This document shows, piece by piece, positions 1-6,374 of a stretch of DNA of 59,433 bases (the first letter of the stretch is position 1; the number at the start of each line of letters is the position of its first letter). The stretch is taken from positions 1 through 59,433 of IMG/VR virus record IMGVR_UViG_3300033553_000061; one strand, 5' to 3'. Below the pieces are notes generated by a model, which saw nothing but the letters and a program-made list of their open reading frames with translations, was not told the origin of the DNA and made no database searches. This DNA comes from a virus. The position numbers and the translations under genes are program-made.

Positions 1-244
1 CCCATATGGATTCGCCCCTATCATCTGGCCACCCATGCCCCCGCCCCTGATCAAGCGCGCCCCCCACGGCCACCCGCCACCATGAGTCAGGGATGGCCAC
101 GCCACCCGAAGAGATAAGCCCCGCCCCCACGCGCGCATGGATTCGCCCCTATCATCTGGCCACCCATGGCCACGCCCCCGCATTGAGCGCGCCCCGCCAC
201 CCACGCCGCCCCATGGCCACGCCACCCACGCCCCCGAGATGGCC
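1..244. repeat. Left-end C-rich direct repeats
   Basis: The left end has no convincing gene. A 32-base direct repeat is present at 6-37 and 137-168 (both begin ATGGATTCGCCCC). Between and after the copies are many short GGCCACGCC, CCATGGCC and CACGCCCCC words, very like the tandem array at 5877-6008. Short reading frames here have a composition imposed by the repeats and lack ribosome sites. The role is unknown; terminal or recombination repeats are possible. Confidence 0.7.
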
Positions 245-301
245 GCCCATTGTTTCGCGTTCCAGAACGCACTGTTGAATAGAACAAGGGGAGAACAGAT
301 A

Positions 302-395
302 GGCAACCTGTGGTTTGCCATATCCCTATGGCCTATATGCGAGATGACCCCCTAGCCCCCCTTATATCGCCGCTATGGGCAACCGTGGGTTTACC
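302..395. promoter_or_regulatory. Pair of operator-like inverted repeats
   Basis: Two related 18-base imperfect palindromes lie 76 bases apart: GGCAACCTGTGGTTTGCC at 302-319 and GGCAACCGTGGGTTTACC at 378-395. Each has GGCAACC and GGTTTRCC half-sites. They sit upstream of the promoter at 449-477 and look like binding sites for a dimeric regulator. No regulator is assigned. Apart from these, 245-448 holds nothing recognisable. Confidence 0.4.
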
Positions 396-448
396 ATGCC
401 CCCGCCCCCTGATGATTGTGACCATTGCGGGGCATGGTCTACTATCGG

Positions 449-477
449 TTGTCTATGTCATCGGGGGACGCTATATT
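449..477 (+). promoter_or_regulatory. Promoter of the left module
   Basis: TTGTCT (449-454) and TATATT (472-477) are separated by exactly 17 bases, a good sigma-70-type match in a gene-free stretch. It lies 48 bases before the first left-module start. A G5/C5 hairpin (486-490 with 500-504) and a strong ribosome site (AAGGATCAGACC, 513-524) follow. The 17-base spacer and TTGT start match the rightward promoter at 55433-55461. Confidence 0.6.
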
Positions 478-524
478 GCGTAGAGGGGGGCGATTCCGTC
501 CCCCGCTAACCGAAGGATCAGACC

Positions 525-761
525 ATGGCCAATCTTATGACCCTACGCCACGCCGCCGCGAAAGCCGCGCGCTATGCGAAAGTAGCAATCGGCGATTGTG
601 AATCCGCGCGCCGCTATGACTTGCCGCTAACCGCCGCCGCCGCCGCCATGCGCGCATGGGAACATTATGCAATCATGGCGAAGCTTAACCGCCATATCGC
701 CGCGCTTGAATTGCACGCAACCGAGTCGGCCATGCGTGCCGCAATCAACGGGGGCAAGTAA
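525..761 (+). CDS. Small Ala-rich helical protein, unknown
   Basis: First gene of the left module, 78 residues, about one third alanine, predicted almost wholly helical with regularly spaced Arg/Lys. No family recognised. The start is fixed by AAGGATCAGACC directly before ATG, a leader sequence repeated before the genes at 1203 and 3232. It lies one base before the next gene, so the two are probably co-translated. Codon choice (GCC/GCG for Ala, TTG for Leu) matches the rest of the left module and differs from the main phage genes. Probably an early accessory protein; that is inference only. Confidence 0.6.
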   Translation: MANLMTLRHAAAKAARYAKVAIGDCESARRYDLPLTAAAAAMRAWEHYAIMAKLNRHIAALELHATESAMRAAINGGK

Positions 762-762
762 C

Positions 763-885
763 ATGGAATTTATCAACGCCGCCCCCGGCTTCGCTGACCT
801 AGCACGCGACTTTATCGTGGCCGATATGGCTCGCGCGCTTATCATATCTGCAATCATGCTTGGCGCATTGCTTCGCATCATCTGA
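763..885 (+). CDS. 40-residue putative membrane peptide
   Basis: A 40-residue frame beginning one base after the preceding stop. The N-terminal half is amphipathic (MEFINAAPGFADLARDF) and the C-terminal half is a hydrophobic helix (ALIISAIMLGALLRII), so it is probably a single-pass membrane peptide. There is no strong independent ribosome site, and translation is likely coupled to the upstream gene. Length and hydrophobicity recall small phage inner-membrane or superinfection-exclusion peptides, but nothing identifies it as one. Confidence 0.5.
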   Translation: MEFINAAPGFADLARDFIVADMARALIISAIMLGALLRII

Positions 886-905
886 CCCCCGAAGAGGAAA
901 ACATC

Positions 906-1133
906 ATGACATTTATAGGCATATTTACCGAAGACGGTTTAGACGGAATCGCCGCCACGGAATCCGGCTTTAACAAGGAACGCCGCGACTTGATCAAAAT
1001 GGGGTTTACCGTGAAAGCATATCGCACAACGGACGAAAGCGAATTGCACGCGATTCATGATTGGATCAGGGATGGCCGAAGCTTCGCAACTGCCCGGGCG
1101 CGCGTAGAGTCTGGCCAGTTTGCCCCCGATTGA
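906..1133 (+). CDS. Unknown 75-residue protein
   Basis: A small soluble protein of mixed alpha/beta pattern, with a hydrophobic N-terminal strand (MTFIGIFTEDGLDGI) followed by charged helices. The start is supported by GAAGAGGAAAACATC just before ATG, close to the leader used at 4658. No domain recognised. It is followed by a strong hairpin (1146-1163) and the repeated leader of the next gene, so it may end a short translational unit. Confidence 0.55.
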   Translation: MTFIGIFTEDGLDGIAATESGFNKERRDLIKMGFTVKAYRTTDESELHAIHDWIRDGRSFATARARVESGQFAPD

Positions 1134-1145
1134 TTGCATCGCTTA

Positions 1146-1205
1146 GGGGCGGAACGCCGCCCCCTTGCCATGCAATCCCGCATGATACCAAAGGATCAGA
1201 CCATG
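1146..1205 (+). promoter_or_regulatory. Leader repeat copy 1: two hairpins plus ribosome site
   Basis: A GC hairpin (GGGGCGG, loop AACG, CCGCCCC; 1146-1163) is followed by a second inverted repeat (CATGC, loop AATCCC, GCATG; 1169-1184), then AAGGATCAGACC and the ATG at 1203. Bases 1155-1205 are identical to 3184-3234, a 51-base exact repeat. The shared part contains the ribosome site, so it is probably a common 5' leader controlling translation or transcript stability. Confidence 0.6.
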
Positions 1206-1394
1206 AACCAATCCGCCCCTCTTCGCTTTAAGATGATTGCAACCGTAGACGGGGGCACCCGTCTTGTGCGCGCCCCCGTGGCCATGGCGCGGGGCTCCTA
1301 TCCATTATGGGCGGCCATGGTGGAACGCCGCCCCGCTAACGCATTGCTTCGCGACATTGAAGACTCCGAAGCCGCTAACGCAATCTTTAACTGA
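1203..1394 (+). CDS. Unknown 63-residue protein
   Basis: Small protein starting at the ATG directly after the repeated leader. An in-frame upstream ATG at 1170 would add MQSRMIPKDQT, but that segment is the leader repeat and is better read as untranslated. The sequence has a strand-rich start (RFKMIATVDGGTRLVRAP) and an acidic, Ala/Asn-rich end. No family recognised. It ends 25 bases before the large gene at 1420. Confidence 0.5.
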   Translation: MNQSAPLRFKMIATVDGGTRLVRAPVAMARGSYPLWAAMVERRPANALLRDIEDSEAANAIFN

Positions 1395-1419
1395 TCAGCA
1401 AAAAGAAGGAAAACAGACC

Positions 1420-2934
1420 ATGACTCAGACAGTATTTAATAACCGCATGGTGGCGCATGTTTGGGCGCAACAGTCGCAAGAATCCGGGCGAAGCAATAAC
1501 GGCCAATTCTATTTTGAGGGGCGCGCAATCTATTCCTATGGCCGCCACTATATCGCCGGTTACGCTTTGCCCCTGCAAAACGGAAAACACCTATTCCTTG
1601 TAAACGCCGATAAATATTCCCCCACAACCGGCAAACATACAAATTACGTCTATTATGCGATTCCGGGCGCGGCGTATAGCGTCCCCAATCTAACCGAATT
1701 GGCAAGCATGATGGAATCGGGGCTCAATGCGTGGGACTACCACGCCGCGCCCGGCGGCCACACCCGCCCCGTAAAACGCCCCGCCACCATGGCGGAACGC
1801 CGGGCGGCTTTGCCAGCTATCAAGCGCGCAATGCTTGCCGGATGGCCGGGCGATTCCTTGGCGTCTTCAATCCTTGCAGCGTTTGGCCAGCGAAGCCCCG
1901 AGACCATGGCCGCCACCATGGGGCGCAAAGTCATCAGCGAAGCAAAGCGCGAAGAGGAACGCCGGGCGAAATATGCTAGGGACCTAAATGCGCGCGCCGC
2001 GAAACATTTTGCCGCGAAAAGCCCCGCTGAAGTGCGCGCCACCATTAGCGCAATCCTTGCCCGTCATCAGGGGCAATGGGGGCGCGATAAATTAGGCGAT
2101 GAAAGCCGCGAAGCATTGCAATGTATCAAAGAAGCGAAAGCGCGGGGCTGGACTCGTATCCATGCCAAGCTAACAAGACGCCGCGCCATGATACGCGCCG
2201 CAATTGCGGACTATGACAACCGGGCGGCCATGGCCCATAGGCAAGCCTCAAAGCGCGAAGCAATCGGGCGATTCCGCGAAGCCGCGCGCAATTGCACGCG
2301 ACTTACAACGGGGCTGGAATCGGCGAAGCTTGCCGGTGATGATAACCCCGCCACGCGCGCCGATTGGTGGCGCAATCTAGGCGATGCGGTAGACTCCATC
2401 TTGCGCCACCATAGCCCCGCCCCCGCCACGGTTTCACGGTTGCACGCAATCCGCGAAGCCGCGCGGATTAAAGCCGCTGAAGAGCGCGAAGCCGCTACCG
2501 CCGCGCGCTACGCCGCTGAAGAGGAAAAGCGCGCGGCTTGGATCAGGGGCGAAGCCGGAAACCATAATGCCCGGCTAAGCGATAAACGGGGGGGCGCATT
2601 GCTTCGCGCCGCTGATGTAGAACGCGACGAATCCGGTGTCATCATCGGGGGCGTTCTGCAAACAAGTCATGGTGCAGCCGTTCCTCTCACCCACGCATTG
2701 CGAGTCTTCGCGTTCCTGCGTCATTGCCGCGCCACGGGGGCGGGATGGCATAGCAATGGCCGCGCGCTTCGCGTGGGGCACTTTCACGTTGATAGCGTGG
2801 CGGCCAATGGTGACTTTGTGGCCGGTTGTCATCGGATCAATTGGGGCGAAGTGGAACGCATTGCGGATTCATTGAATATCTTTGAAACCGTAACCGCTGA
2901 AGACACGACGGAATCTAGCAGGGGGGCGGCTTGA
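1420..2934 (+). CDS. Large Ala/Arg-rich left-module protein, unknown
   Basis: 504 residues, the largest left-module product. The first ~120 residues look globular, with many Tyr and Gly (YFEGRAIYSYGRHYIAGYAL). Residues ~125-410 are long charged helices very rich in Ala, Arg and Glu, likely coiled coil. The last ~90 residues are again globular. The start is chosen because AAGAAGGAAAACAGACC stands just before ATG 1420; longer in-frame extensions run through the preceding gene. GANTC sites occur about every 126 bases. No family recognised; a DNA-binding or structural early protein is conceivable. Confidence 0.65.
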   Translation: MTQTVFNNRMVAHVWAQQSQESGRSNNGQFYFEGRAIYSYGRHYIAGYALPLQNGKHLFLVNADKYSPTTGKHTNYVYYAIPGAAYSVPNLTELASMMESGLNAWDYHAAPGGHTRPVKRPATMAERRAALPAIKRAMLAGWPGDSLASSILAAFGQRSPETMAATMGRKVISEAKREEERRAKYARDLNARAAKHFAAKSPAEVRATISAILARHQGQWGRDKLGDESREALQCIKEAKARGWTRIHAKLTRRRAMIRAAIADYDNRAAMAHRQASKREAIGRFREAARNCTRLTTGLESAKLAGDDNPATRADWWRNLGDAVDSILRHHSPAPATVSRLHAIREAARIKAAEEREAATAARYAAEEEKRAAWIRGEAGNHNARLSDKRGGALLRAADVERDESGVIIGGVLQTSHGAAVPLTHALRVFAFLRHCRATGAGWHSNGRALRVGHFHVDSVAANGDFVAGCHRINWGEVERIADSLNIFETVTAEDTTESSRGAA

Positions 2935-3161
2935 TGCGTAGCGTCTCTTCAAATATCGGCACGCTAACAATCTTGAATCGGTTGCCTAGCAGTCGCCACG
3001 GAAACCCGCGCTTTCTGCTATATATCGCCGGTTTCCATTGCGTAACCGCGCCGGATTCCCCCCTTGGATATTCCGTCATGAACATGGATGGCAAAGAAGT
3101 TCGCGCTACAATCGGGGTCTATTATGGCCGCGCTACTCTCAACACGGTTGAACTGGCCTAA
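2934..3161 (+). CDS. Unknown 75-residue protein
   Basis: The ATG overlaps the TGA of the large gene (TGATG), the usual sign of translational coupling. The product is basic at its N-terminus and then strand-rich (FLLYIAGFHCVTAP, YSVMNMDGKEVRATIGVYYG). No domain recognised. It is followed directly by the second leader repeat, which restarts translation of the next gene. Confidence 0.5.
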   Translation: MRSVSSNIGTLTILNRLPSSRHGNPRFLLYIAGFHCVTAPDSPLGYSVMNMDGKEVRATIGVYYGRATLNTVELA

Positions 3162-3173
3162 GATTGTATATCG

Positions 3174-3234
3174 GGGGGCGGCGCGCCGCCCCCTTGCCAT
3201 GCAATCCCGCATGATACCAAAGGATCAGACCATG
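3174..3234 (+). promoter_or_regulatory. Leader repeat copy 2
   Basis: A perfect 20-base palindrome (3174-3193, GGGGGCGGCG and its complement) is followed by the CATGC/GCATG inverted repeat (3198-3213) and AAGGATCAGACC before ATG 3232. Bases 3184-3234 match 1155-1205 exactly. The upstream hairpin is conserved in structure although its sequence outside the repeat differs from copy 1, which argues that the hairpin matters. Confidence 0.6.
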
Positions 3235-3432
3235 TTTAAAAATATTGATCGTATAGGCGACTCGTTATTGTTCCATAATGGTGATGATGGGCCATGCTTC
3301 GCACTATCGGGCGAAGCCGCGCGGGGGCTTGCATTGGCAATTATTGACGGGGCTGATGATATTGAATCAACGTCTTTTGACAATTCCGATTGGCCCGGCG
3401 TTATATTGAACCTGAGCGGGGGCAAAAAGTAA
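3232..3432 (+). CDS. Unknown acidic 66-residue protein
   Basis: Starts at the ATG ending the second leader repeat and stops at TAA 3430-3432, whose last base is the first base of the next ATG. The product is acidic, with a GDDGPCFALSGE turn and an Ile/Asp-rich middle (ALAIIDGADDIEST). No family recognised. The tight overlap with the next gene points to a small coupled unit running to about 4628. Confidence 0.55.
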   Translation: MFKNIDRIGDSLLFHNGDDGPCFALSGEAARGLALAIIDGADDIESTSFDNSDWPGVILNLSGGKK

Positions 3433-3620
3433 TGGATATTGAAACCAAACGATTTAGAATCCGAAGCGCGCCGGGCGCGGGATTCTATCTGACAAAAAAG
3501 GCAACCGGCGATATTGAATTTATATCACAAGCCCCGAGTGCAAACCGGCTTGCCATGATAACGGAATCGCAATTTGATCGCGAAGCCGCTGAAGCAATGG
3601 AGTCGGGCGCATGGAATTGA
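3432..3620 (+). CDS. Unknown 62-residue protein
   Basis: ATG overlaps the preceding TAA (TAATG). The product is small and of mixed structure (RFRIRSAPGAGFYLTKKATG) with an acidic C-terminal helix. The next gene starts inside its last ten bases. No function can be proposed; synteny only places it in the left-module accessory cluster. Confidence 0.5.
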   Translation: MDIETKRFRIRSAPGAGFYLTKKATGDIEFISQAPSANRLAMITESQFDREAAEAMESGAWN

Positions 3621-4156
3621 AACCGCATTTTATGATCAGCGAATCCGATGGCGGCCTATATGATACGCGCGCCCCGAATTGGTCCCACGCCCCATTGCGC
3701 CCGGACTATGCGCGGCACTTCACAACCATTGAAACCGCCGCCCAATTCAAAGCAACAATTCGCGCGGGCGGCTATGCTTGGCCGGGCGGCTATTCCTTGG
3801 CGCTATATTGCGCTGATGGCGGCGCGCTTTGTTTCGATTGCGGGCGCAAAGAGGCGCGGGCGATTCTGGACTCCATCATGACGGATTGCCGGGACGGTTG
3901 GCGCGTCATTGGTTGCGGCGTGGAATATGACGGCGAAGAATCCGGCGTCAATTGCGACCATTGCGGCGCGGCTATCAGCGAAGCCTCCGAAGAGGATTCA
4001 TGCCCATGGGAAATTGTGTTTCACCATGGGGGCGGATGGCGCGCTATTCGTAACGGGGCGGCCACGGATTCCGATGTCACAGAATATTGCGCAACCGAAA
4101 CCGAAGCGCGCGAAGCCGGGCGCGAAGCATGGGGGGACTCAACAGATGACAATTGA
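3611..4156 (+). CDS. Cys-rich putative zinc-binding protein
   Basis: 181 residues. Cysteine pairs CFDCGRKEA (near residue 77) and CDHCGAAI (near residue 116) look like zinc-knuckle ligands. The region between them is GCGVEYDGEESG, and the C-terminus is acidic and Glu-rich. The zinc motif points to nucleic-acid or protein binding; the specific role is unknown. It starts within the previous gene and overlaps the next by 11 bases. GANTC sites are very dense here and in the next gene (20 counted in 3600-4680). Confidence 0.6.
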   Translation: MELKPHFMISESDGGLYDTRAPNWSHAPLRPDYARHFTTIETAAQFKATIRAGGYAWPGGYSLALYCADGGALCFDCGRKEARAILDSIMTDCRDGWRVIGCGVEYDGEESGVNCDHCGAAISEASEEDSCPWEIVFHHGGGWRAIRNGAATDSDVTEYCATETEAREAGREAWGDSTDDN

Positions 4157-4628
4157 TTACATTCCCGAGAATTTAGAATTATGGAAAACGCCGGACTCAT
4201 GGTTTGGGACGCCGTGGAACGGTTACTATGTTTTTTTGGGACGCCATAGGGATTCTGATGACTTGTCCGAATCCAATTACCATTGCGCATTGCGTGAATT
4301 GGGCGGCGAATCCGAAACCGTTGTTACCGTATGCGAGTCGCATTGGGCAGTCGGGTGGATTGAATGGATTGCGATTCATAAGAGCGATTCAAAGTCTCTC
4401 GCAATCGCTGATGACTTGGCGGGGGCGTTGTCTGATTATCCCGTATTGGATGAAACCGACTTTTCCAAACGGGAATGGGAATCGGTTTGCACCAATTGGG
4501 AAAGCGATTCAATTGGAGACCGAGTCGAGAATCTTAGACGGTGCCGCATGTCAATTTTTCAAGCGCGCCGGGATTATTTCCCATCTGATGACTCGGGCAA
4601 TTTGTTCGAAATTTACCGCTCATATTGA
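4146..4628 (+). CDS. Unknown Trp-rich 160-residue protein
   Basis: Starts at ATG 4146 inside the end of the previous gene. Notable for many Trp residues (LELWKTPDSWFGTPWNGYY; SHWAVGWIEWIAIH), acidic overall, with a mostly helical C-terminal part. No family recognised. Local composition is more AT-rich than the neighbours and has the highest GANTC density in the window. An upstream in-frame extension exists but runs through the previous gene without a ribosome site. Confidence 0.55.
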   Translation: MTIDYIPENLELWKTPDSWFGTPWNGYYVFLGRHRDSDDLSESNYHCALRELGGESETVVTVCESHWAVGWIEWIAIHKSDSKSLAIADDLAGALSDYPVLDETDFSKREWESVCTNWESDSIGDRVENLRRCRMSIFQARRDYFPSDDSGNLFEIYRSY

Positions 4629-4657
4629 GCCCCACAACCGAAGAGGAAAACAGACCG

Positions 4658-5671
4658 ATGACTAAGTTTTTTGAGACTTTCAAAGCCGCGCGCCGCAATG
4701 CCCCTAGCTTCGCCGCGCAAGGATATAAGACTCAACCATATAAGGGGGCGGACTATTCCGGCCCTGATGATGGAATCGGATTCGCCGCCTATGCCAAGCG
4801 CAAGGCAACCGCGCTTTGTTATGCTGATGTAACGGCCAGAGACGCAGCCGAATCCGCGCGCGACGAATTGAGCGAAGCATACCGGGCGCATGGGTCAGGA
4901 ACGCCGGAACATAAAGCCGCGCTTGCAAAATTGAACGCCGCCGAATCCGCTGCCCGGCTTGCAAGCCGCGCCACCTATGGCCACGCCACGGGGGGCAATG
5001 GTGCCGCTGATTGGTTGCGTTATGTCGGGCGGGTTATGCCTGATGGCGGGGGGCGGCGCGGCGCGTGGGACCATGGCGGCGATTGCGGATGGTACACTGA
5101 CCCCCACGGGGGCGTTTTTAATGATGGCTCTGGCCTATGTTATGGCGTTGTTTATCAGCTAACCGGCAAAGATGGCAAAGCGCGCTTTGTGGCGGGATTC
5201 CAGTTTGGTGGCGTAGACGGGGGACCTAGCCTTGATCTGGCCACCATTTACGAATCCGGCGAAGAGGGGGCTGATTACGATTCCGCCGAAGATTCCGGCG
5301 TGGTCATCGCCGCCGATGATATGGCGAAGAAAGCCGCCGAAGAGGAGAAGGAATATCAAACCGCATGGCGCGCCGGATCAGACTACGCCGAAGCCGCCGA
5401 AGACGTGGGGACGCTACGCCGCGAAGCATTGGCCATATTGAAAGAACGCCGCGAAGCCGCCACAACCGGCCCGGCTTTTCCGGCTTTGTGCGATGCAATC
5501 CGGGGGCGCGTGGAATCCTTGCGCGAAGAGATGGCCGAAGCGCGCGAAAAAATGTCCGAATTGGCCGCCGGTGACTATGGCGAATTGATATTCTGGCCGG
5601 GCGAAGAGCGACTCCAATCCGCATTTTGCGAGGGGGCGGGGCTTGATAAAATGCCGGGTGCTTCGGCTTGA
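4658..5671 (+). CDS. Unknown 337-residue left-module protein
   Basis: ATG 4658 follows GAAGAGGAAAACAGACCG, the same leader type as 906 and 1420. The N-terminal ~110 residues are Ala-rich helices. The middle (about 125-205) is Gly-rich and probably globular (GGDCGWYTDPHGGVFNDGSG, then FVAGFQFGGVDGG). The C-terminal ~120 residues are charged helix with coiled-coil character (KERREAATTG, REEMAEAREKMSELAAGD). No family recognised. It ends by overlapping a small membrane-peptide frame. Confidence 0.6.
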   Translation: MTKFFETFKAARRNAPSFAAQGYKTQPYKGADYSGPDDGIGFAAYAKRKATALCYADVTARDAAESARDELSEAYRAHGSGTPEHKAALAKLNAAESAARLASRATYGHATGGNGAADWLRYVGRVMPDGGGRRGAWDHGGDCGWYTDPHGGVFNDGSGLCYGVVYQLTGKDGKARFVAGFQFGGVDGGPSLDLATIYESGEEGADYDSAEDSGVVIAADDMAKKAAEEEKEYQTAWRAGSDYAEAAEDVGTLRREALAILKERREAATTGPAFPALCDAIRGRVESLREEMAEAREKMSELAAGDYGELIFWPGEERLQSAFCEGAGLDKMPGASA

Positions 5672-5811
5672 ATCCGGCACGCGCCGCCGGGCGCATCATC
5701 GCCGCTATCATCATGGCCGCCGCTATCATCGGGGCCATGGTGGACTCGGTGTATTGGTTGCCATGGGGCTTTGCTTTCGCGGCTTTGTTCTGGAATGTTT
5801 CGCCGGATTAG
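5668..5811 (+). CDS. 47-residue putative membrane peptide (TTG start)
   Basis: A short frame whose TTG start overlaps the previous TGA (TTGA). It encodes two hydrophobic segments, RIIAAIIMAAAIIGAMV and LPWGFAFAALFWNV, separated by a short polar turn, as in a two-helix membrane peptide. An internal ATG at 5713 would leave most of the hydrophobic part. It is the last gene before the terminator at 5837. Size and topology would suit a holin-like or membrane-stress peptide, but there is no proof. Confidence 0.45.
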   Translation: MNPARAAGRIIAAIIMAAAIIGAMVDSVYWLPWGFAFAALFWNVSPD

Positions 5812-5836
5812 ACGCCGCCCCATAACGCCACCCATG

Positions 5837-5870
5837 GCCCCCGCTAAGCGATTGGCGGGGGCTTTGCTTT
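5837..5870 (+). terminator. Rho-independent terminator of the left module
   Basis: A perfect 8-bp stem (GCCCCCGC 5837-5844, GCGGGGGC 5855-5862) with a 10-base loop is followed by TTTGCTTT. It closes the rightward left-module genes just after the 47-residue frame. Confidence 0.8.
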
Positions 5871-5876
5871 GCCCGA

Positions 5877-6008
5877 TGGCCACGCCCCTGCGCCCCTAGC
5901 TGGCCACGCCCCTGCGCCGCCACGCCACGCCCCTGCGCCCCTAGCTGGCCACGCCACGCCCCTAGCTGGCCACGCCCCTGCGCCCCTAGCTGGCCACGCC
6001 ACGCCCCC
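5877..6008. repeat. C-rich tandem repeat array
   Basis: Five irregular units begin at 5877, 5901, 5946, 5967 and 5991, each starting TGGCCACGCC; most end CCCCTAGC. Unit length is about 21-45 bases, with internal CACGCC duplications. The same words fill the left end (1-244), so the left module is bracketed by related repeats. A long leftward reading frame across the array is a composition artefact. Confidence 0.8.
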
Positions 6009-6015
6009 AAAAAAT

Positions 6016-6057
6016 TAGGTCAGCATTGCTGTCTTATAATAGGTCAGCATCCCTGTC
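6016..6057. repeat. Iteron-like direct repeat TAGGTCAGCAT..CTGTC
   Basis: Two 18-base copies (6016-6033 and 6040-6057) share TAGGTCAGCAT, two variable bases, then CTGTC, with a period of 24. The core ATAGGTCAGC occurs once more in reverse at the right end (59405-59414). They lie within a gene-free stretch (5812-6374). Iteron or regulator binding is possible. Confidence 0.5.
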
Positions 6058-6152
6058 CTAAAAATCCGCTTGATTGACGGTGTGCTTTCAGTTGACATTG
6101 GAACCTGTTACCAAAGCCACGGGTTGATTTGAGAAGGGAATTTTTTCGACAT

Positions 6153-6223
6153 GCTACTTTGCCAACCCAGCCCGATGCAAAATTCCAGCTACTTTGCCGA
6201 CTCAGCCCGTTGCAAAAATTCCA
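6153..6223. repeat. Head-to-tail 35/36-base direct repeat
   Basis: Copy 1 (6153-6187) and copy 2 (6188-6223) both read GCTACTTTGCC, then a C-rich middle, then TGCAAAATTCCA, with a few substitutions and one extra A. The copies abut exactly. No coding sense was found. The rest of 6058-6374 holds a possible CCCGGC/GCCGGG hairpin near 6319-6344 and no clear promoter. Confidence 0.6.
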
Positions 6224-6374
6224 CGGCGCGGGCCAAAATCAGACCGCTCGTAAACCGCTCGACACTATGCTATGCTGCCGCTATTAACCCAGATCAGGTC
6301 CGGGCGGCAGGCCCGGCTCTACTCGATTTGGAAGGCCGGGAGCCGTCGAGCAGATGAAACACCCGGAGCCTGAC

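Follow-up and report, generated by a model that had tools for sequence, protein, structure and literature searches.

The virus record IMGVR_UViG_3300033553_000061 from IMG/VR, 59,433 bases long and here called the window, carries at its left end a module of small genes (positions 525-5811), which we compared with the remaining ~53 kb of the genome, the body. Judging from its base patterns, the block is very probably under region-specific selection at the DNA level, acting on coding and noncoding DNA alike. CcrM, an adenine methylase tied to the cell cycle in alphaproteobacteria, has GANTC as its recognition site. As a whole, the best explanation, to which we give about an even chance, would be a resident early module loaded with GANTC for marking by the CcrM of the host.

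Composition and codon usage of the left module

For scoring the module, 96 body segments of equal length served as background. The lag-1 autocorrelation of strong versus weak bases (S/W, that is, G/C versus A/T) was 0.246 in the module and averaged -0.057 in the body segments (standard deviation 0.013, maximum -0.022), which places the S/W clustering of the module at z 23. GANTC occurred 60 times, against a body-segment mean of 12.5 and a maximum of 21 (z 13), and six-base palindromes 99 times (mean 26.8, maximum 43). The 4-mer composition shifted sharply at the module edge, and a trinucleotide change point was found at 6285. Therefore, the compositional block spans 1 to ~6285 and exceeds 525-5811 on both sides, taking in the noncoding left end and the junction control region (Table 1).

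The codon-usage and k-mer comparison of 525-5811 with the rest also gave a clear difference. Among the leucine codons, the module/body fractions were.41/.13 for TTG,.24/.09 for CTT,.15/.02 for CTA,.09/.45 for CTG and.04/.30 for CTC; the remaining shifts included GAA (.83/.40), AAT (.59/.20), AAA (.63/.22), CAA (.74/.22) and TAT (.77/.34). A sequence-only reading of this DNA had described a module with base and codon habits of its own, preferring TTG/CTT/CTA, GAA and AAT where the body prefers CTG/CTC, GAG and AAC. The measured fractions bear out these preferences and differ too strongly for codon use to be called similar. The description was in fact understated, since codon use, S/W, palindromes and GANTC all deviate.

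S/W clustering in coding and noncoding DNA

Neighbouring bases were S/W-correlated at every pair of codon positions, with values for positions 1-2, 2-3 and 3-1 of 0.19, 0.33 and 0.24 in the module versus 0.04, -0.08 and -0.11 in the body. The noncoding flanks of the module were positive as well, and synonymous shuffling of the module genes lowered S/W from 0.249 to 0.182. Body intergenic DNA gave 0.019 in the window phage and 0.000 in its relative S-ESS1, and stayed within 0.00-0.04 across the window phage, S-ESS1, R16L, DSS3-P1 and AH2, with Chi as a partial exception (0.151). Because all codon positions and the noncoding DNA of the block were positive and body intergenic DNA was not, we regard the S/W signature as a regional property of the DNA and not of codon usage alone. 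The codon habits noticed earlier are thus real, but the sequence-only reading missed both the action at the DNA level beyond codons and the loading with GANTC.

These values bear on an explanation without any special selection, in which a weakly expressed, fast-evolving module sits at mutational equilibrium and the body is under translational codon selection. The module codons do look non-optimal, and the module proteins have diverged faster (54-64% identity to S-ESS1, against 83-84% for the body). However, body intergenic DNA of the window phage and S-ESS1 is near 0, so that mere relaxation or a resemblance to noncoding DNA does not account for the module; a host-like replicon gave 0.028, compared with 0.24 in the module, and the excess of GANTC in all frames (below) is not predicted. 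We consider this explanation improbable.

GANTC enrichment

Against Markov and shuffle expectations, which handle local composition though not every constraint, 96 palindromes of four bases around 0-5 central Ns were ranked without preselection. GANTC took the top rank in the module of the window phage (65/20, observed/expected) and in those of S-ESS1 (60/19), the Erythrobacter phage R16L (81/21) and the Ruegeria phage DSS3-P1 (60/18). It was also first of 96 in five IMG/VR phages (L023, L024, L028, L031 and L047). Module observed/expected ratios spanned 3.2-3.9 among the four alpha-type phages with the strongest enrichment and were about 1.0 or less in phages of beta- and gammaproteobacterial hosts; in the blocks of the six such phages ranked, GANTC came 45th-92nd. 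The window phage itself probably infects an alphaproteobacterium.

In the window module, GANTC exceeded the synonymous-shuffle expectation in all three frames. For frames 1 and 2, the observed counts were 10 and 10 in the window (shuffles 1.8 and 5.2), 22 and 12 in R16L (2.8 and 3.2), and 13 and 15 in DSS3-P1 (1.6 and 4.3). Correspondingly, [DE]S dipeptides in the window module were raised three-fold (44 vs 13.8), with no rise in the bodies. At the central N, A/T predominates in the window and G/C in the other phages, and complementary forms occur with similar frequency. Such a free N with balanced orientations fits an enzyme that reads GANTC on double-stranded DNA, and the sites have the free N and palindromic symmetry of a CcrM substrate. 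In the two largest genes, 5 (of 13/17) and 1 (of 11/15) sites are common to the window and S-ESS1. Since so few are shared, the density of GANTC has been kept while positions turned over, past synonymous saturation.

The idea that the bodies avoid GANTC because of CcrM was not upheld for the window phage, as gamma-host relatives have the same ~0.5 ratio and synonymous shuffles of body genes gave 55 vs 57.8. Separately, Roseobacter phage RDJL Phi 1 (L088) has a single GANTC site in its first 50 kb, a near-total absence.

A resident module shared with S-ESS1

The window phage falls within the Casjensviridae. Its portal protein is closest to family members (83% amino acid (aa) identity to Synechococcus virus S-ESS1, followed by Achromobacter AchV4 and Ruegeria phages), and its ~60-kb genome (59.4 kb, with 60.4 kb in S-ESS1) has a collinear left end. 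Comparison with relatives found a homologous module at the same site in S-ESS1, with the same 4-mer shift and a junction that has related repeats and across which the alignment runs. At conserved amino acids, 4-fold third-base identity to S-ESS1 was 0.42-0.54 in the module and 0.44 and 0.47 in body genes; because these are much the same, the synonymous sites are saturated. The sites CCGCGG, GCCGGC, CGGCCG and CCWGG are absent from the modules of the window phage, S-ESS1 and R16L, and absent or nearly so from their bodies. GGCGCC is absent from the window and R16L modules, has one copy in the S-ESS1 module, and is absent or nearly so from the bodies. These common missing restriction sites indicate a restriction history shared by module and body.

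The S-ESS1 module and junction, the synonymous saturation and the shared absence of sites argue against both an assembly chimera and a recent import. A chimera, which the sequence-only reading had raised as a way in which it might fail, would explain the abrupt change at ~6285, but S-ESS1 is an independent record whose homologous junction contradicts it, and we regard a chimera as extremely improbable. A recently acquired foreign cassette retaining the codon usage of its donor would explain the sharp difference in codon and k-mer habits as well as the gene relatives in unrelated phage lineages. However, the module is neither absent from relatives nor unameliorated in one lineage: S-ESS1 shares module, site and signature with the window phage at the low third-base identity given above, module and body miss the same sites, and the signature extends beyond codons. 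Moreover, among the bacterial genomes of GTDB, the only occurrences of phrog_7247, the PHROG family of the 504-aa module protein, were on two contigs, both phage-like, from a single metagenome-assembled genome (MAG). A recent import is therefore quite unlikely. The proposal of an exchangeable cassette holds insofar as gene relatives occur in unrelated lineages, but in this lineage the block is stably resident and its order matches that of S-ESS1.

With good confidence, we take the block as the long-resident early module, of the host-takeover type, of a virulent Casjensviridae phage. We infer early expression from its position, from homologs in terminal repeats and a T7-like left end, and from a promoter-like site. 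An anti-host or counter-defence function of the module genes is plausible from their position and type.

In the body (6354-59433), 6-bp palindromes are at ~30% of expectation, and CCGCGG, GGCGCC, GCCGGC, CGGCCG and CCWGG are at zero. Avoidance of restriction sites in a first-injected region was rejected, because 6-bp palindromes numbered 265 vs 867 expected in the body and 121 vs 163 in the module, and the specific sites are missing from both.

Distribution in other phages

The comparison phages were picked as relatives of the window phage and are hence not a random sample, and several genomes were compared in part. Relatives of phrog_7247 occur in Caulobacter phiCbK-like (in the terminal repeat), Brevundimonas, Autographiviridae Rhizobium (left end), Erythrobacter (near an end), Xanthomonas and Achromobacter phages. 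They span several unrelated lineages and sit mostly in early or terminal regions, as do the blocks of phiCbK (terminal repeat), RHEph01 and the Brevundimonas phages. Single-protein IMG/VR scans with the 504- and 337-aa proteins gave no matches, but a search with the family alignment did find relatives, placing phrog_7247 in 71 IMG/VR loci. Across the 64 loci scored, the median S/W was 0.07 at the match versus -0.03 far away, and it exceeded 0.05 in 39/64.

S/W blocks were also present where no phrog_7247 match was found, in DSS3-P1 (0-6 kb), AchV4, AH2 and Chi (0.22 vs 0.04), in Serratia, Pseudomonas and Pectobacterium Casjensviridae, and in RcCWillis and RHph_X2_30. S/W clustering marks small early-type blocks of short open reading frames (ORFs) in most Casjensviridae examined, the phiCbK terminal repeat and the Brevundimonas phages. 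Alongside the GANTC excess, it forms a second and more widespread feature of early blocks of this kind in the Casjensviridae. No S/W block was present in the first 50 kb of RDJL1 and Loktanella pCB2051-A, the early position of Klebsiella N133 showed no clear block, and in T7 there was a trace at most.

Dense noncoding GTTAAC/TTAA arrays lie upstream of the early module in phiCbK (L004, 1.9-2.7 kb), Brevundimonas Leszy (L008, 17.9-18.2 kb) and L012 (17.8-18.1 kb). We take these arrays of Caulobacterales phages to resemble CtrA-type TTAA boxes. TTAA-type motifs in the Brevundimonas and phiCbK modules were set aside, being mostly noncoding arrays. In the early block of Xanthomonas AhaSv (L010, 18.6-23.6 kb), the top palindrome was CCGG (85 vs 34.5 expected).

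Possible marking by a host methylase

With moderate confidence, we propose CcrM as the reader of the module GANTC sites. The PF01555 methylase was absent from the window phage, S-ESS1 and R16L and present in DSS3-P1; since the window phage lacks it, host CcrM would have to act. A comparable loading was seen in Chi, where the top palindrome of the early block is the Dam site GATC (50 vs 20.9 expected, and above synonymous shuffles at z 4.8). As the Salmonella host has Dam, this fits a general rule of loading with the site of a host orphan methylase. The general Dam version was set aside as a verdict, holding in Chi only.

Several observations weigh against marking by CcrM. Enrichment was weaker in Rhodobacter RcCWillis (48/27) and Sinorhizobium RHph_X2_30 (31/22), and GANTC was neutral in the phiCbK block and depleted in the Brevundimonas and RHEph01 ends. 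The GANTC-rich L031 was binned in a MAG of the gammaproteobacterial Marinobacter, although the binning may be wrong. The recorded host of S-ESS1 (NC_052968) is Synechococcus, yet its module, rich in GANTC, looks like the modules of Erythrobacter and Ruegeria phages, and the host record may deserve a check. GATC loading was not repeated in the Serratia (1.27) or Pectobacterium (1.13) relatives of Chi, with 1.55 in the Pseudomonas relative. Finally, the extended GcrA motif YGAKTCK was not enriched among 266 module sites (-1 Y 0.46, +1 K 0.50), which weakens a plain GcrA-promoter model.

GANTC might instead be read by a factor other than CcrM, with methylation incidental; candidates are a protein of the phage, a factor for recombination or packaging, and some other binding protein of the host. 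The missing GcrA motif, the lack of a PF01555 methylase in the window phage and the uneven strength of enrichment among alpha phages would suit such a reader, but a free central N within a palindromic site is what a GANTC methylase would read, and enrichment is found in Erythrobacter and Ruegeria phages and not in the beta/gamma-host phages examined. A reader of this kind is, in our view, rather unlikely.

Methylated GANTC is bound by GcrA, which brings in polymerase; one of the bound regions is coding and has three sites (PMC3667746). A GcrA homolog is encoded by phiCbK (PMC3556154). An annotated GcrA-like cell cycle regulator lies just beyond the early block of RHph_X2_30 (L096, 7562-8206). 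If CcrM is the reader, the host enzyme would methylate the module GANTC sites, and the early phage DNA would bear the N6-methyladenine mark of the host and be treated as host-like. The marked DNA might then be transcribed early by host RNA polymerase, possibly via GcrA on methylated GANTC; alternatively, it could be spared by a methylation-sensitive process. The GcrA/transcription step is doubtful. In a tentative generalization, phages might load the module they express first with the site of a host orphan adenine methylase (CcrM GANTC, or Dam GATC in Chi), bending protein sequence to do so, and the host-like mark might serve early takeover as a switch or a shield that depends on methylation.

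Comparison with known systems

Bacillus phage SPO1 has a host-takeover module in its terminal redundancy. Like the window block, this module gathers small genes of the early type, functionally uncharacterised, close to the end of the genome; to our knowledge, it has no methylase-site-loaded, compositionally distinct block. Phage T5 likewise has a terminal pre-early region that is injected first, but two-step injection is a T5 feature, and the window block is known from sequence alone. The T5 first-step-transfer region is mentioned in PMC3556154. The 10.3-kb terminal repeat of phiCbK (PMC3556154) resembles the block in its relatives of the 504- and 337-aa proteins and in S/W clustering; however, GANTC is neutral there, the phage lineage is separate, and the available part of that source describes no distinct composition. 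Pelagiphage genomes are also shaped by the CcrM motif (PMC9516812), but through GANTC depletion in a comparison of whole genomes, unlike the local enrichment in one module of the window phage. In the epigenetic transcription system of GcrA and CcrM (PMC3667746, PMC7987155), GcrA and RNA polymerase are drawn by methylated GANTC to host promoters with few sites, whereas in the window block ~65 sites are spread through coding DNA, without the extended motif.

Work on early phage regions, which hold many small unnamed genes, usually proceeds one protein at a time; in the present block, the DNA itself appears to be under selection strong enough to dictate dipeptides. If CcrM reads the sites, phage early expression would be wired to the alphaproteobacterial cell cycle. 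The S/W measure offers a simple locator of such blocks in unannotated phage genomes.

Genes and elements of the block

The 12 ORFs at 525-5811 lie on one strand near the genome end and mostly encode fewer than 100 aa (Table 1). The sequence-only reading had found no known family among them, which holds for Pfam, but PHROG gave matches to 7247, 8188, 20597 and 4313 (unknown function) and one labelled DNA ligase. It had also given the module its own promoter, repeated leaders and a terminator. The leaders stand: the 60-nt leader is duplicated, with 97% identity between the copies, and a 19-nt one occurs three times; the promoter and terminator are plausible and not proven, as scan totals were near the shuffle mean. 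GC-rich repeat arrays lie at both block edges. The claimed bracketing by repeats agrees with GGCCACGCC at 95, 168, 215 and 5878-5992, but an additional copy lies within a gene at 4979.

Table 1 Features of the left block of the window.
Feature	Position	Strand	Remark
Whole compositional block	1..6285	.	GANTC 65 observed vs 20 expected
Noncoding left end with GGCCACGCC-type repeats	1..524	.	same S/W clustering, 0.187
Sigma-70-like promoter match TTGTCT-17-TATATT	449..477	+	consensus match only
78-aa ORF	525..761	+	without family match
40-aa ORF	763..885	+	in frame with mechanical ORF 667-885; start read from sequence
75-aa ORF	906..1133	+	
60-nt leader, copy 1	1146..1205	+	repeat search
63-aa ORF	1203..1394	+	
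504-aa protein, phrog_7247	1420..2934	+	profile E 1.7e-93, residues 3-502 = full length
~75-aa ORF, phrog_20597	2931..3161	+	PHROG match
60-nt leader, copy 2	3175..3234	+	repeat search
66-aa ORF	3232..3432	+	
62-aa ORF	3432..3620	+	
181-aa ORF, phrog_18452	3611..4156	+	PHROG label 'DNA ligase', doubtful
160-aa ORF, phrog_4313 (unknown function)	4146..4628	+	PHROG match
337-aa protein, phrog_8188	4658..5671	+	PHROG match; relatives in phiCbK-like terminal repeats
47-aa ORF	5668..5811	+	
Terminator-like hairpin, 12 pairs	5836..5863	+	
GGCCACGCCCCTGCGCCCCTAGCT repeat array	5878..6013	.	
Junction control region, TAGGTCAGCAT and CTACTTTG repeats	6016..6285	.	S-ESS1 junction has these repeats too

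In the 504-aa protein, conserved ends flank a long helical middle, and its structure model is confident (predicted local distance difference test 90.6). The model had no match in the PDB below E 0.28, and its matches among viral structures were uncharacterised phage proteins, one labelled DUF8033, from which no function was gained. The heptamer GCGAAGC, which as DNA folds into a mini-hairpin of unusual stability, was counted 27 times on the two strands of 525-5811 and may simply reflect Glu-Ala codon pairs.

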